From NCBI GenBank assembly GCA_009760855.2, contig WPIO01000001.1:16043001-16107000 (forward strand): DNA of 64,000 nt. Direction: 5' to 3'. This document shows positions 13,365 through 57,418 of this stretch, one piece after another. Numbering within the stretch: position 1 is the stretch's first letter; each line of letters starts with the position of its first letter. The notes below the pieces were generated by a model. That model saw nothing but the letters and a program-made list of their open reading frames with translations, was not told the DNA's origin and searched no databases. Position numbers and translations under genes: made by a program. The DNA is from Cristatella mucedo (Eukaryota > Bryozoa > Phylactolaemata > Cristatellidae).

Positions 13365-14052
13365 TCTAAAATTTAACTAACTCCTTAGTTATGTCTCGGC
13401 TTGATTATTGCAATTCCCTGTTGGCTGGGCTACCAAAAAAAGCGATTAGGCCACTGCAGCTGACTATGAATATGGTGTCAAGGCTAGTCTTCAAGTCCCA
13501 GAGGTTTGAGCACGGGTCTCCTTTGCTAAAAGAGCTTGGATGGTTGCCGGTTGAGCAACGGAAACAGAGCAAAGTTCTTACGCTGACCCACAAGGCCCGC
13601 CACGGCTTGGCTCCTTCGTACCTATCTGAACTGCTGCATCCGTTTCAGCCTGTTCGCGCCCTCAGGTCCTGTGTGGACAATAAATTATCTGTCCCATTCC
13701 TCCGCTTAAAGACCGCTGGCGACAGAAGCTTTAGCTCTGCAGGTCCTAGACAGTGGAACTCGCTTCCACAATTTTTACGCAACGACAACGACTCTCCTAC
13801 TGCCGACTATGGCACATCCTTTTCAGTGGTCCTGAGCTGCTACTTCCATGCCACTCACTACCTTTAATGCTCTCCTGACTCTGCTATGCTTCCCACTTTC
13901 TTTTTGTTGTGTGAGACGAAGTCTTTTGGCTACCGAATTCGTACCGAAAGCCGCTTAGGCTGTGAGTGCACTATACAAAACTCTCCTGCGTAACACCCAC
14001 ATGATCTTTTATGACTTTGTGGAGTTACAGCCGGAGATACATTACATTATCT
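13365..14052 (+). mobile_element. LINE A, 3' end fragment (longest clean ORF remnant)
   Basis: An uninterrupted 158-codon stretch covers the end of the RT ORF: SRLDYCNSLLAGLPKKAIRP, LLKELGWLPVEQRKQSKV, LKTAGDRSFSSAGPRQWN and YFHATHYL, then stop. The 3' UTR ends GAGATACATTACATTA. 5'-truncated, as is usual for LINEs. Confidence 0.85.
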
Positions 14053-33136: not shown

Positions 33137-33465
33137 TTAGCAGTAAAACTGCAATCTTGGGTGTCTCGACTCCGAGCGTTTGCTTAATTTAGATGCAGCT
33201 TTAGTGTTCTGGCAGTTCCATCGGCAAAGAAAACAAGAAAACTTCGTGAAACCCCCTTCGAGGTCTATCAGGAATGACACCATTTTATAATAATAATAAT
33301 AATGCACTTGATAAAGCGCCCTCAGAGAACTCAATCTCTTTCTAGGCGCTTTACATTTGCTGTAAAGGGAAATGCAATTGAATGGTGAGTAATATCATGC
33401 TTGATAAACAACATGAATAACATGGTTAGGGGTGACATGCACTGGGTCAGCATGCAAATGTGGTT

Positions 33466-34570
33466 CACTTCTATGCAGATGACACTCAGTTGTACCTTTG
33501 CTTTGATCCCTCCCAGCCTTCGAGCACCTCAAATTCTCTAAACTCACTAGCTGCATGCATTGATGACATCCGCACATGGATGGCAGCAAATTTTCTAAAG
33601 CTTAACGATGATAAGACTAACTTACTAGTTATGGGCAAACCCAGTGTGATCCAGAGATTGGAAAGGCTGACTCTCAAAATTGGCTCTGCCAGCATATCTC
33701 CAGTTGAATCAGCTCGAAATCTAGGTGTCATATTCCAAAGCGACCTCTCGTTAGACGACCATATCAGCTCCACAGTCAAATCCGCCTATTTTCAGCTTCA
33801 TAACATTGCTAAAATTCGGGCTTGTTTAGATAAGGATACCACGTCTAAGTTGGTCCATGCATTCGTGGCATCCCGTCTCGACTTCTGCAACTCACTGCTT
33901 ACTGGCCTACCGGCATGTGCGATCAGGCGATTGCAGCTGGTGCAAAACTCTGCAGCTAGGCTTGTCTGTCGTGAGTGTCGCAGCTGCCATATCACACCAC
34001 TTCTCACCGACCTGCACTGGCTACCAGTCAAGCAACGGATTGACTTCAAGGTTTTGTCGCTCACTTTTAGGTCACTTCATTCTTTGGCTCCAGCCTATCT
34101 CTCAGATCTACTCCCTCACCAGGCCAAGCATCGTACCACCCGCTTTTCGGAATCCAACAGTCTAGAAATACCTCATACAAACCTTAAATCCTTTGGAGAC
34201 CGTGCATTTAGTTGATATGCTCCCAAAGCCTGGAACTCCCTCCCGACCTACGTCAGAACATCTCCTGACCTGACCACATTTAAAAGGAACCTAAAACACA
34301 CCTATTTAGGACAGCATTTAGTGGGTCCCTGTGATTCGTCCTTGATGTGCTTATGCGTGCTGACACTGTGCATGCTGCCACTAACCACATTTGCATGCTG
34401 ACCCTGTGCATGTCACCCCTTACCATATTATTCATTTCGTTTGTTTTTTCAAGCATGATTTTACTTACCATTCAATTGCATTTCACTTTACAGCAAATGT
34501 AAAGCGCCTAGAGAGAGATTAAGTTCTCTGAGGGCGCTTTATCAAGTGAATTATTATTATTATTATTATT
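33466..34570 (+). mobile_element. LINE B, sense, youngest layer of the nest
   Basis: A 250-codon open stretch starts at HFYADDTQLYLCFDPSQPSS (RT catalytic motif C) and runs through LNDDKTNLLVMGKPSVIQ, RNLGVIFQSDLSLDDHISS, RACLDKDTTSKLVHAFVAS and NSLEIPHTNLKSFGDRAFS; a stop (TGA) replaces the next codons. 3' UTR, stem-loop and (ATT)n complete the 3' end. Among the best preserved copies, but 5'-truncated. Confidence 0.9.
34500..34570 (+). repeat. LINE B terminal stem-loop and (ATT)n tail
   Basis: Outer stem AAAGCGCC/GGCGCTTT (34501-34508 with 34533-34540), inner stem AGAGA/TCTCT around a TTAAG-type loop, then ATCAAGTGA and seven ATT-type units. Reference copy for the tail shared with SINE A. 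Confidence 0.85.
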
Positions 34571-36159
34571 AGTGGCAGCATGCACAGTGTCAGCACACAT
34601 AAGCACATGAAGGACGAATCACAGGGACCCACTAAATGCTGTCCTAAATAGATGTGTGTTTGAAGTTCTTTTTAAATGTGGTCAAGTCAGGGAATGTTGT
34701 GACACAAGTCGGGAGGGAGTTCCAGGCTTCGGGAGCATACAAACTAAATGCACAGTCTCCAAAGGATTTGAGATTTGTACTGGGCATAGGTAGACTGTTG
34801 GATTCCGAAAAGTGGGTGGTACGATGCTTGGCCTGGTGAGGGAGTAGATCTGAGAGATAGGCTGGAGCCAAAGAATGAAGTGACCTAAAAGTGAGCGACA
34901 AAACCTTGAAGTCAATCCGTTGCTTGACTGGTAGCCAGTGCAGGTCGGTGAGAAGTGGTGTGATTTGGCAGCTGCGACACTCACGACAGACAAGCCTAGC
35001 TGCAGAGTTTTACACCAGCTGCAATCGCCTGATCGCACATGCCGGTAGGCCAGTAAGCAGTGAGTTGCAGAAGTCGAGACGGGATGCCACGAATGCATGG
35101 ACCAACTTAGACGTGGTATCCTTATCTAAACAAGCCCGAATAACTTTCCAGCCATAGGTGCTCTATTTCCCGGCACTTGGTAACATCTTGACACTGATAT
35201 AGTCCTCTTTGATGTCTTTGTAGTCCTCTTTTGAGTGAGTCAAAGGGAGAGACGCATATTAGTTCCCGTTATGAAGCAGCATGGCTATGAGACTCCTGGA
35301 TGAACTTCCTCTGACTAGGCACCATTCACTCGGGTTACAGAGGATTCTTGTAGCCTCGAGTAGGCCGGAATTGTTGCAGAAGTATAGCCCATCTCTTACG
35401 ACCGAAGAAGTTGGATAAAGTTAGTGACGATTTCACTAAGCTGTCATATCACTTGTTCATCTAATAAGTTTTACTCCTCCAGTCTAGATGTCGAATGCTC
35501 AGCATTGGATTTAGAATGACGAAGGCCTCTGATCGGGTCGTTGAGGTCTTTCTGTTGGGGAAGTGTACCTTTCTCTCCTCAGCTGCATCTATGAAATTGG
35601 AATCTGGATTTGCAATATCTTCCTCGATGATTGACATGCTGCTCTTTCCGGAAAAAGGTCAACCACTCTCCGTAGGGGTGGGGATATGGAGCTCAGGACA
35701 GTGCGCTAGTGGGGCAATTAATGAAGGATTGTGTGGATACAGGATGGGAGGCGCAATCTCGCCAGTTCAACGTTTGGAAGGGTGAACCATGCTGAGATAG
35801 AAGTTGCTTGAGTGGTCAGTCGGTTTCTGCTAAATTCACGTGATGGCAAACTTCACGGCTCCCCTTTCGTCCTTTACCAGCCTGTAAACATGACAATTAA
35901 ATAAATTAAAAAATGTTATTTCACTCATTACCTAATGTTGTGAAAGAAATTCCATCTAGCAAGCAGCAATCGTTTACCTTACTTTCAAGAGTTCTCTTGC
36001 AGTGTTATTAAGGTAAATGAGATGCCCAGAGCTTGTCTTGATCCCCGACAGGTATGCCGGAGTATGCTTTGTAGGCCTTGCACATCTTAAAGATGCTTCA
36101 ACATAGTGCTTTTTTGCTCTTGTCTTTATAAATTGTCCACGCTCGTAGAAAAATGCATC

Positions 36160-42690: not shown

Positions 42691-43141
42691 TTGTCTCTCG
42701 ATGCTGGTATATGGAAATCGGTAAGTAAACAGGACAAACGGTTTTTGCTGTTGCTACGATTTGACAAGTACTCTTACATTGCTATAAATAAATATCTGTC
42801 TATGTAGAGGTACATTTCTGACCATTAATAATAGGTCCTAGGATGTCATGCTTGAAACTATCACAAATGTTAGAGGATCAGTCAGCACAATGTGGCAGTC
42901 GTTGGTTGCCTTCATGCAATAACACCAAACTATGCAGCACGTATGTAGGGAGCAGGTGGAGAACTCTGAAATATTTGAAATATGGCATATCTTCCTTGTA
43001 CCCACCTGGGAGAGGCGATATTTTCAGTAAGCAACAGTCACTTTTTTGCTGTTTGGCCTTCTATTTTTCAGCAACTGTCAAGATGTATTCCATTGGCAAA
43101 TTCTGTCACGTACATGTGAAATTTGAAAGCATGGTCTATGT

Positions 43142-43327
43142 CAGTGGTTCTCAGCCTTCCTAATGCTGCGATCCTTTAATACAGTTCCTCATTTTGTGGC
43201 GATCCCCATATCATAAAATTATTGTATGCAAAATGTGGAAATGTGTTTTCCGATGGCCTTAGGTGACCCGTGTGAAAGGGTCGTTCGACCCCCAAAGGGG
43301 TCGCGATCCACAGGTTGAGAACCATTG
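43142..43327. mobile_element. SPIN-like non-autonomous hAT element (186 bp)
   Basis: The ends are CAGTGGTTCTCAGCC... and ...GGTTGAGAACCATTG, an inverted repeat opening CA[GA]TGGTTCTCA. The element is flanked by a perfect 8-bp duplication GTCTATGT (43134-43141 and 43328-43335), the hAT signature. The interior has CCTTTAATACAGTTCCTCAT and GTGACCCGTGTGAAAGGGTC, then GTTCGACCCCCAAAGGGGTC, which I recognise from memory as the SPIN family consensus. No coding capacity. It lies in NEURL4 intron 17. Confidence 0.88.
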
Positions 43328-43698
43328 GTCTATGTGGTGCTTCATGCTAGTAGGTTAGGCTTAGCAAGTCTGCAAAGTACACTGCAGCTTCAAAAAGCAT
43401 ATGCGTACTGTGTAGTATCAATTGCTAGGTTAGCACGAAGCCTACTAAAGGTGATAGCAAACACGATAAATGAAATGTTCAACTTTGTATTTTACGATCA
43501 CTAGCAGATATACGTGAAATCTATTATTAGAGAACTAATACTCTGTTGCAGTTCACCTTTCGTAATGCTACGTTAGGCCTTTGTATTCCTACAACCAGTA
43601 ATGGCTGTCCACTTGCCTAATTAAATTCACTGGCTATGTGTTCAGATATCGACAACATATTACCATATTTAGTGATTGCTTTTTCTTGCCATGTCTAG

Positions 43699-43797
43699 GT
43701 GAATACTCGAGTCGGAGTGATAAGAGCAAAGGACTCATCGATGCATGTCTATGTCAACGGTGAGGACCTTGGCATTGCAGCTATTGGACTACCACGG
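43699..43797 (+). CDS. NEURL4: NEURL4 exon 18: NHR5 third segment
   Basis: Acceptor ATGTCTAG. Encodes VNTRVGVIRAKDSSMHVY, then VNGEDLGIAAIGLPR. Phase 0 both ends; donor CGG|GTAAGC. The SPIN-like transposon ends 371 nt upstream, and LINE A debris begins about 35 nt downstream. Confidence 0.92.
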
Positions 43798-54619: not shown

Positions 54620-57018
54620 CCAAAAGTCTTTTAATTGTGTTTTATTTTTAACTAGATGACAGACAAAATGAAAAAAACAGTCCAGTTTGGGAATACTTCA
54701 GAGAAAAGGACGGTGACAGCTCAAAATCCCAGTGTTTGCTGTGTCCAAGCATCTTGTCACGTGGTAAACCAGATGAGCCCAAAAAAATTTTCAACTTCGG
54801 CCATGCTGACACATCTTCGCTCAAAACATTATAAAGAATACAACGAAATGCAAACCAAAATTGCTAATGCAAAGAAGAAGGCTGAAACTGCAGCACTGTG
54901 CCGAATGTTACACCTGGTGCAATAGGCAAAGTCATGATCCAGAAAACGATTCCCCGAACAAGTTGCATGCATGAAAGTATGGGATATCAATAACAGCTCA
55001 TCAGTGAGAATTCACCGTGCCATTGCTAAGATGATAATAACAGATATGCAACCGGTTCAGATTGTTGAGAAGGCAGGCTTTGTTGAACTCATGGGAGTTT
55101 TTAGAGAGGCGTTACACTGTTCCATCACACGAAAATATTTTGCAGAGAGAGTCATTCCTGAAATTAATGATGAAGTTTGCACCCAGCTGTTGGTAATACT
55201 CGATCCAGCAACTACTCCGTTTCTGTCCTTTACCACTGATACATGGACAGCAGACAATACTGTGCAATCATTCATGGGCTTAACTGCCCATTGGCTGACA
55301 GAGGAGTTTGAAAACATGAGTTTTGTGTTGGATTGCATGCCATTTGCTGGTCATCACACTGCTGCTGGACTGATGACTGCCTTTCAGCAGATGCTTGACA
55401 AATGGAACATTAGCTTTGGACGCTGTCATGTCGTACTTCGAGACAATGCGGCGAACATATCAAAATGTTTTCGTGATGCCAACATAAAAAAGCTTCGGGT
55501 GCTTTGCACATACCATGCAGTTATGTGTGCATGACGGATTGCTCAGTCAGCGGGGAGTATCAGACATAATAAGTATCGGAAAGAAATTAGTTGGTCATTT
55601 TAAACATTCTTCATCTGCGAGTGGTCGGTTCAAGGAGTTGCAGGCTGAACTGGGTTTGCCAGACCACCAGCTGTTACAAGACGTGAGCACAAGATGGAAC
55701 TCAACGTTTTTACATGCTGCGTCGTCTATGTGAACAGCGTCGTGCATTAACCCTCTACTGTTCAGAAGTCGTTGGCACTTCCTGCCCAACTGCACATCAG
55801 TGGTCCGTGGCTGAAAATGCTGTGTCCGTGCTTGCTCCGTTTGAAGAGGCAACAAGAGAAGTTAGCCGTGAAGCAGCACGTATATCACTAGTTATTCCTA
55901 TTGTAACAGCTCTGCGGAACCTGTTGAAGAAGGACTGCACAGATGCAGGTGTAAAGACTATGAGGTCAACCCTAATCAACTCATTGAATGAACGCTTTGA
56001 CAGTATCGAGCAGGAAGCCCTGTATACAGTGGCGACAATGATTGATCCACGATTCAAAACAAAATTCTTCTCATCAGAAGCTACACTGACAGCTACAAAA
56101 GCAAGGGGTTCTGCTTGCATTCAATGAATTGACAGGGCAGATAGAAACTGTGCAAGATGGAAGCCACAAAAATCAGTCTGAGCGGCAGGTTGACACAAAT
56201 GAAGAAATTCCAGCCAAGCAAGCCCGGCTGGATAATTCTTCTCAATCATCAGTACTTTGGGAATGTTTTGATGACATTGTTCAATCTACTGCTGGTACCA
56301 CAGGCAGTGAGCAACAACCAGACATTGACAGTCAGCTGAACAAATACTTGGCAGAGCCATTAATAAACAGAGAGGCTGATCCACTACAGTGGTGGAGACA
56401 GAACAGGGAACGACTGCCAGCTCTGGGCAACAGTAGCTCGCGTTTATTTGGGTGCTCCACCAACAAGTGTACCTTCAGAACGTTTGTTCAGTGTTGCTGG
56501 GGAAGTCCTCAGTGATCATCGAAGTTCACTTCTGCCAGAGAATGCAGCTCGACTGATATTTCTCAAATATAATTCAAAACTGATGAAATAAATTTAAGAA
56601 ACAAATGTATGAAAAAAATATATAAAATTACAGTACTTATTTTTGTATTTTTGAATTTTGAACTTTAGTCTCTTTTCATTTTTTTTGTGTTATTACCAAT
56701 ATTATGATGTAAAAAATGTTTACTCAATTTTTTAATAAAATGTCACTGCTATACGATTATCACTGAGGTCTCCCACAGCAACACCTATTACACACAAAAA
56801 TAAACAAACAGCGCAAAAGACAATGATGCTACTTATTATTAATAATATTTTTTTAATTAAATATTTATTGTAGTATATATCCTCAAGTAAAAACTTGGTA
56901 GTACAAATGGTAAAAATTTGTCCGATGAACAAATCCGGCTCCGGCCGTATTTGTCATCAAAAATCCGGCAAATCCGGCTCCGAAAAAAAAAAAAAAAATC
57001 AAATCCGGTACAGCCCTA
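54620..57018 (+). mobile_element. hAT transposon, BED-zinc-finger type, degenerate
   Basis: Holds a broken transposase gene (54656-56591). Its 3' end is rich in AAATCCGG copies (about 56931, 56964, 56972, 57000) and finishes ...CAAATCCGGTACAGCCCTA, whose reverse complement TAGGGCTGTACCGGATTTG is a plausible hAT terminal repeat. I did not find the matching 5' end, so this copy is probably 5'-truncated or its left end has diverged. Bases 57019-57418 contain nothing further. Confidence 0.8.
54656..56591 (+). pseudogene. hAT transposase (ZBED-like), multiple frameshifts
   Basis: In order, over at least three frames: BED finger with WEYF, C-x2-C (QCLLCPS) and LTHLRSKHYKEYNE; a helical segment; RNase H-like fold with first Asp in FTTDTWTADNTVQSF, second in LRDNAANISKCF; CTYHAV; DVSTRWNST (the hAT W-x-S/T box); MIDPRFKTKFFS; and the C-terminal dimerisation region DPLQWWRQN, PPTSVPSERLFSVAGEVLSD, ENAARLIFLKYN. 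Breaks lie near 54790, 54920, 55530, 55730, 56115 and 56440. The family is Ac/ZBED-like hAT. Not translatable as one protein now. Confidence 0.88.
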
Positions 57019-57418
57019 GTATATATTAGAAAATTGTGTCCAATTTGTTTGGGAAGTGTCCCTCTTGATTTTTAAACTGTTGTCCCTGTTCGAATGCTCT
57101 TGCAAGTTTTGGATTGCCTTATTTTTTGGTTACCATCCCTCATATTTAATAATAGCATTTATACATAGTAATGTGATTGTCGTGATGTGGTGTTTGTTGG
57201 TAACCTTGTTTTTAATGCTGATATGGAAGTTACTTCTTCAGAATGTGCTTATTATGCTCTAGCCTTTTTTCCTGAGTATTCGAAAAAATTATTGCTTATC
57301 CTTGATTCTTTTTCCTGAATCTGTTTTCGTGCATGCATGCTTAATCAATCAAAGAGTTGTGAGATCTTCGTATGCAGACGCTAGCGATAATAGCGTACAG
57401 TGCTAGGGATTGACATTG

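Follow-up and report, generated by a model that had tools for sequence, protein, structure and literature searches.

A 186-bp element within a window of 64,000 nucleotides (i.e., the whole stretch of DNA that was analysed) is reminiscent of SPIN (SPACE INVADERS), which Pace and colleagues reportedly described in 2008 as non-autonomous hAT elements of tetrapods. The locus thus raises the question of whether such an element entered the present genome by horizontal transfer and, if so, when. A sequence-only reading had answered with a recent arrival, pointing to the inverted ends and the perfect 8-bp target duplication of the element, in a window where all the other transposons would be heavily decayed. 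The element and its flanks are organized as follows:

43142..43327, + strand: probable SPIN-type non-autonomous hAT element, 186 bp, with 13 substitutions and a 2-nt gap relative to the 187-bp family consensus
43142..43157, + strand: left terminal inverted repeat, 16 nt, complementary to the right repeat at 14/16 positions
43312..43327, − strand: right terminal inverted repeat, 16 nt
43134..43141, no strand: left target-site duplication, GTCTATGT
43328..43335, no strand: right target-site duplication, GTCTATGT
43283..43302, + strand: 20-nt family signature GTTCGACCCCCAAAGGGGTC, with 1030 genome places at ≤2 mismatches (control: 0)

Both structural features were recovered as claimed: the 16-nt ends (CAGTGGTTCTCAGCCT on the left, AGGTTGAGAACCATTG on the right) are complementary at 14 positions (88%), and GTCTATGT stands on either flank. 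The direct repeat reads as 10 nt (TGGTCTATGT at 43132–43141 and 43326–43335), because the terminal TG of the element is identical to the two bases preceding the left duplication. Two interior strings were also located, CCTTTAATACAGTTCCTCAT at 43173–43192 and GTTCGACCCCCAAAGGGGTC at 43283–43302. When the window was scanned for identical 8-mers spaced 80–1500 bp apart and the adjoining 14-nt ends were compared, only 2 of the 2239 pairs enclosed inverted ends matching at 11/14 positions or more, the other one (33980–34975) lying within an inverted pair of reverse-transcriptase ORFs. No second copy of the 186-bp element was found in the 64,000-nt window.

At the genome level (572,011,866-bp assembly, 688 contigs), the window element used as a query returned 2163 first-look candidates, and the 40 best scored among them include 39 other copies that are 86–91% identical to it. 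Together with the window copy, these 39 copies were used to build a 187-bp consensus, which remained unaltered when extended to 53 full copies (54 distinct copies, minus an incomplete one that was left out). Used in turn as a query, the consensus yielded 2336 candidates, of which the 40 best are 94–96% identical to it, with one further match at 85%; the fetched copies being the best-scoring ones and the nearest to the query, this sample is biased toward well-preserved copies. A genome-wide count of the signature GTTCGACCCCCAAAGGGGTC gives 1030 places (against 0 for the control), and copies are spread over many contigs of 0.1–25 Mb. With their 8-bp target duplication and short inverted ends, the copies have the hallmarks of the hAT superfamily. 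Target octamers, taken from the 28 of the 39 copies that show at most 2 mismatches between flanks (11 left out), follow the consensus nTCTAGAn: position 4 is T in 53/56 octamers, and position 5 is A in 53/56. Such a TA-centred duplication is that of the hAT Buster group, the target of which, nnnTAnnn, is said to have been established by Arensburger and colleagues in 2011. Across the 53 full copies, the duplication is exact in 14 and differs by at most one mismatch in 36.

Empty sites were identified for seven of the 39 other copies: when their flanks are joined, leaving out the element and one of the two octamers, the resulting sequence matches repeat copies inside the window on both sides of the junction. 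The junction is gap-free in 22 of the 31 comparisons, while a gap lies near it in the other 9. The clearest case is that of copy L024, where the window (14041–13445) features a single GTCTAGGA:

13445..14041, − strand: control, repeat copy without the element, paralogous empty site for L024 (600 columns, 78.8%, junction gap-free)

The copies are therefore products of cut-and-paste transposition with an 8-bp duplication. When the flanks of the window copy were searched for an empty site, they matched only themselves. In addition, two SPIN-like copies (L025 and L029) occupy similar target sites in related repeats, one in the opposite orientation to the other.

To which known elements is this family akin? 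The consensus was translated in its reading frames and compared with a set of 5.8 billion proteins; 17 of 37 candidates passed the threshold (E 0.01), eleven without an organism name and six with one. These six are all from vertebrates: Myotis myotis (three), Gekko kuhli, Xenopus tropicalis and Staurois parvus. The Myotis and Gekko matches cover both arms of the consensus (nt 1–81 and about 97–186), in non-coding DNA, and no vertebrate match was returned by this protein search for the middle of the 187-bp form (about nt 82–96). Compared as translations of 27–30 codons per arm, and not as whole DNA, the consensus and one Myotis sequence (P0121) share 28 consecutive identical residues (28/30 over the full local alignment), while the Gekko sequence (P0124) is identical at 26/27 residues and a second Myotis sequence (P0126) at 25/27; the matches to Staurois (23/26), to the third Myotis sequence (P0127, 24/29) and to Xenopus (27/45) are weaker. 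We take all these vertebrate sequences to be SPIN, of which these vertebrates are presumably hosts. Outside of proteins, the SPIN strings had no match in viral contigs (0) nor in phage and plasmid collections, and three bacterial or MAG contigs carrying them were set aside, as their best matches to the element (19–26 nt) were taken as chance. A text search of papers for the same strings matched only mouse Ate1 papers. In one of them (PMC2837401), a mouse Ate1 primer agrees with the consensus at 18/20 positions, and its partner, compared by eye, at 18/19, within the element end.

Longer relatives of the 187-bp form bear on the same question. The query here was a sequence of 32 nt, presumably from the interior of vertebrate SPIN, which is present at 34 places of the genome with at most 3 mismatches (control: 0) and is absent from the 187-bp form. 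Five of these loci were read (L118 to L122), and all correspond to longer elements sharing their left arm with the 187-bp form, with lengths of 309, 300, 482, 509 and 478 bp, in that order. The left arm of L120 and L122 matches four proteins (one from Myotis, three unnamed) at 26–29/32 residues, its frame reaching a stop codon where the matching proteins end, while the three others (L118, L119 and L121) have a disrupted frame and match at 15–19/32 residues. Exact 8-bp duplications were observed in L121 and L122. These longer SPIN-like elements (about 300–509 bp) are of at least two internal types. Considering the copy number, the nTCTAGAn targets, the empty sites, the vertebrate translation matches and the presumed SPIN 32-mer, the assignment of the element and its family to SPIN-type hAT transposons, which had first been proposed from the letters alone, appears well supported, as does horizontal transfer.

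For the case for transfer, a host gene right beside the element serves as a comparison:

43699..43797, + strand: NEURL4-like exon, 3′ of the element, in a frame with a Neuralized-like stretch (3′ boundary by eye)

Since the element lies about 370 bp upstream of this exon (43699 onward), it most likely sits in an intron of the NEURL4-like gene, the identity of which was assigned via Pfam Neuralized and human KIAA1787. The NEURL4-like exons (3037–57900) span more than 50 kb, with introns packed with repeats. Over 630 columns, identity is highest (58–60%) to Haliotis, Pecten, Lingula, Tubulanus, Capitella and Liolophura, then reaches 57.8% to Biomphalaria pfeifferi, 57% to Saccoglossus, 55% to Ixodes, 53.5–54.3% to vertebrates and 32–44% to cnidarians, but the differences are small and, because the exons were chosen by motif, the vertebrate figure is inflated. 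Exon pieces are about 28–44% identical to animals generally over long alignments. Two NEURL4 trees gave the window row no settled place: in one, it is nearest to two molluscs, and in the other, it falls outside of the remaining bilaterians (support 95), next to the long cnidarian rows, a position that was not used, as it might be a long-branch artefact. The host is likely an invertebrate, but not Biomphalaria (57.8%), nor by inference its pond-snail kin, nor apparently a hemipteran (37% to Rhynocoris). A COX1 motif search of the genome returned 0 places.

When set against this gene, the element is well preserved: the two best arm matches keep 96–100% of their residues, versus 53.5–54.3% for NEURL4 (three vertebrates), even with the inflation due to exon choice, and the element has no gene that would constrain it. 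Because gene-less DNA is far more conserved than NEURL4 across the divergence of this lineage from vertebrates, horizontal transfer, as already claimed by the sequence-only reading, would be the best account of the near-identity in non-coding DNA, and we regard it as well supported. Our preferred interpretation, to which we give a probability of roughly 85%, is that the window copy belongs to a large non-coding family matching SPIN, likely transferred horizontally, long ago, into a probably invertebrate lineage. Mechanistically, a SPIN transposase would have moved internally deleted copies in trans, by binding their ends, excising them and inserting them at nTCTAGAn with an 8-bp stagger, while the deletion derivatives (187 bp and about 300–509 bp) would have been amplified before coming to a stop and decaying. 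No such transposase was found in the genome: a search for the hAT dimer domain reported 138 matches (150 scored of 766 candidates), and no SPIN end was seen at 30 strong hAT loci nor at 10 weak ones.

A less probable scenario, though one still worth entertaining, would make the lineage an old and long-term host of SPIN, in which the deletion derivatives arose, so that this lineage or a close relative acted as a reservoir for the invasion of tetrapods and was not a mere recipient. Quite improbable, by comparison, is vertical descent, i.e., an ancient hAT family of the lineage, the SPIN-like ends of which would be due to shared ancestry or convergence. Related termini are frequent among hAT elements, but the similarity extends beyond the termini to both arms (nt 1–81 and about 97–186), in gene-less DNA, in a host with a NEURL4 only 53.5–54.3% identical to that of vertebrates; moreover, the scored copies all derive from a single, recent-enough consensus.

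Regarding the date of the transfer, the window copy diverges from the consensus by 7.0%, and the K2P distance to the consensus ranges from 0.033 to 0.098 (median 0.056) in the 53 full copies, the closest pair of which differs by 5.9% and the median pair by 10.3%. Since the best-preserved copies radiate star-like from one consensus, with such a median distance, such a closest pair and such a divergence of the window copy, the amplification burst seems to be both over and old. CpG cells (22 CpG positions in the consensus) are changed in 129 of 877 cases, against 321 of 6587 elsewhere, hence about three times as often, which suggests DNA methylation of the SPIN-like copies in the host. At face value, the exact 8-bp duplication might speak for a very recent horizontal arrival, with a young window copy and near-identical copies elsewhere. 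Yet, it is a poor sign of youth, as an exact duplication flanks 14 of the 53 full copies (the window copy being among those examined), and thus 13 others if that count includes the window copy. A recent arrival is further contradicted by the best 40 scored copies (of 2336 candidates), which reach only 94–96% identity to the consensus, by the 5.9% separating the closest full copies, by the 7.0% of the window copy and by the CpG decay, all of which make it hardly credible. From the initial interpretation, we thus retain the SPIN-type hAT and the horizontal transfer, but neither the recent date nor, as detailed below, the general decay of the other transposons.

A transferred hAT family other than SPIN (OposCharlie1, hAT1 or ExtraTerrestrial) is just as hard to credit, considering that the presumed SPIN interior 32-mer is found at 34 places, against 0 for the control, and joined to the same left arm. 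What speaks for it is that these families have hosts in common with SPIN, according to PMC11614815. Finally, contamination of the assembly by vertebrate DNA, even if all named protein matches are from vertebrates, has a negligible probability and was rejected, because the window copy adjoins exons of a non-vertebrate-like NEURL4 gene and other copies are nested in the repeat families of the host found in the window, with empty sites there; copies are also spread over many contigs of 0.1–25 Mb.

In comparison with tetrapod SPIN, the present family has the same termini, both arms, the 8-bp TA-centred duplication and a non-coding high-copy form, as well as the presumed SPIN interior 32-mer in its longer copies, whereas the middle of its abundant form (about nt 82–96) is its own, without a vertebrate match, and it probably resides in an invertebrate. 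SPIN is also known in Lymnaea. Among invertebrates, Rhodnius prolixus offers a parallel: its genome contains vertebrate-like SPIN that is ascribed to horizontal transfer (Gilbert et al. 2010, as cited in PMC11614815), but our host is not a close relative, its NEURL4 being 37% identical to that of the hemipterans Rhynocoris and Ranatra (local alignments, joined-exon query). Similarly, Biomphalaria glabrata carries about 1,000 copies of a SPIN-like hAT, a high-copy family in an invertebrate host that PMC5440852 judges not to be a recent invader; the host lineage is nevertheless different, because NEURL4 is just 57.8% identical to Biomphalaria pfeifferi. Among vertebrates, 385 SPIN copies are given for the painted turtle in PMC4054807, while OC1_Das_NA of the Tasmanian devil (PMC3621081) is a horizontally transferred hAT which, like the present family, exists as a homogeneous high-copy MITE resulting from internal deletion, but which belongs to another hAT family and has a known autonomous partner. 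Within the portions of the literature searched, Rhodnius and Biomphalaria are the only invertebrates named as SPIN hosts, and the present lineage apparently differs from every invertebrate host given there. SPIN serves as a classic example of how transposons move between phyla, to which a further and apparently unrelated invertebrate host would be added: its thousand or so signature places, several size forms and old burst offer a datable point on the route, and its genome is a place where an autonomous SPIN source could still be sought.

Other repeats of the window deserve a brief comment. Near-identical reverse-transcriptase ORFs form an inverted pair (33436–34215 and 34644–35125), and the corresponding LINE is repeated many times in the window. 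A second hAT, which is not SPIN, lies at 54827–57026 and is 98.8% identical to a genomic copy (L083), at odds with the statement that all the other transposons are heavily decayed. It was considered as the autonomous partner of the SPIN-type element and rejected, its end (CCGGTACAGCCCTA) being unrelated. The ORF of this second hAT is broken in the window copy; several genomic copies of its family have open frames of 635–642 aa and are about 99% identical to one another, so that the family may be active.
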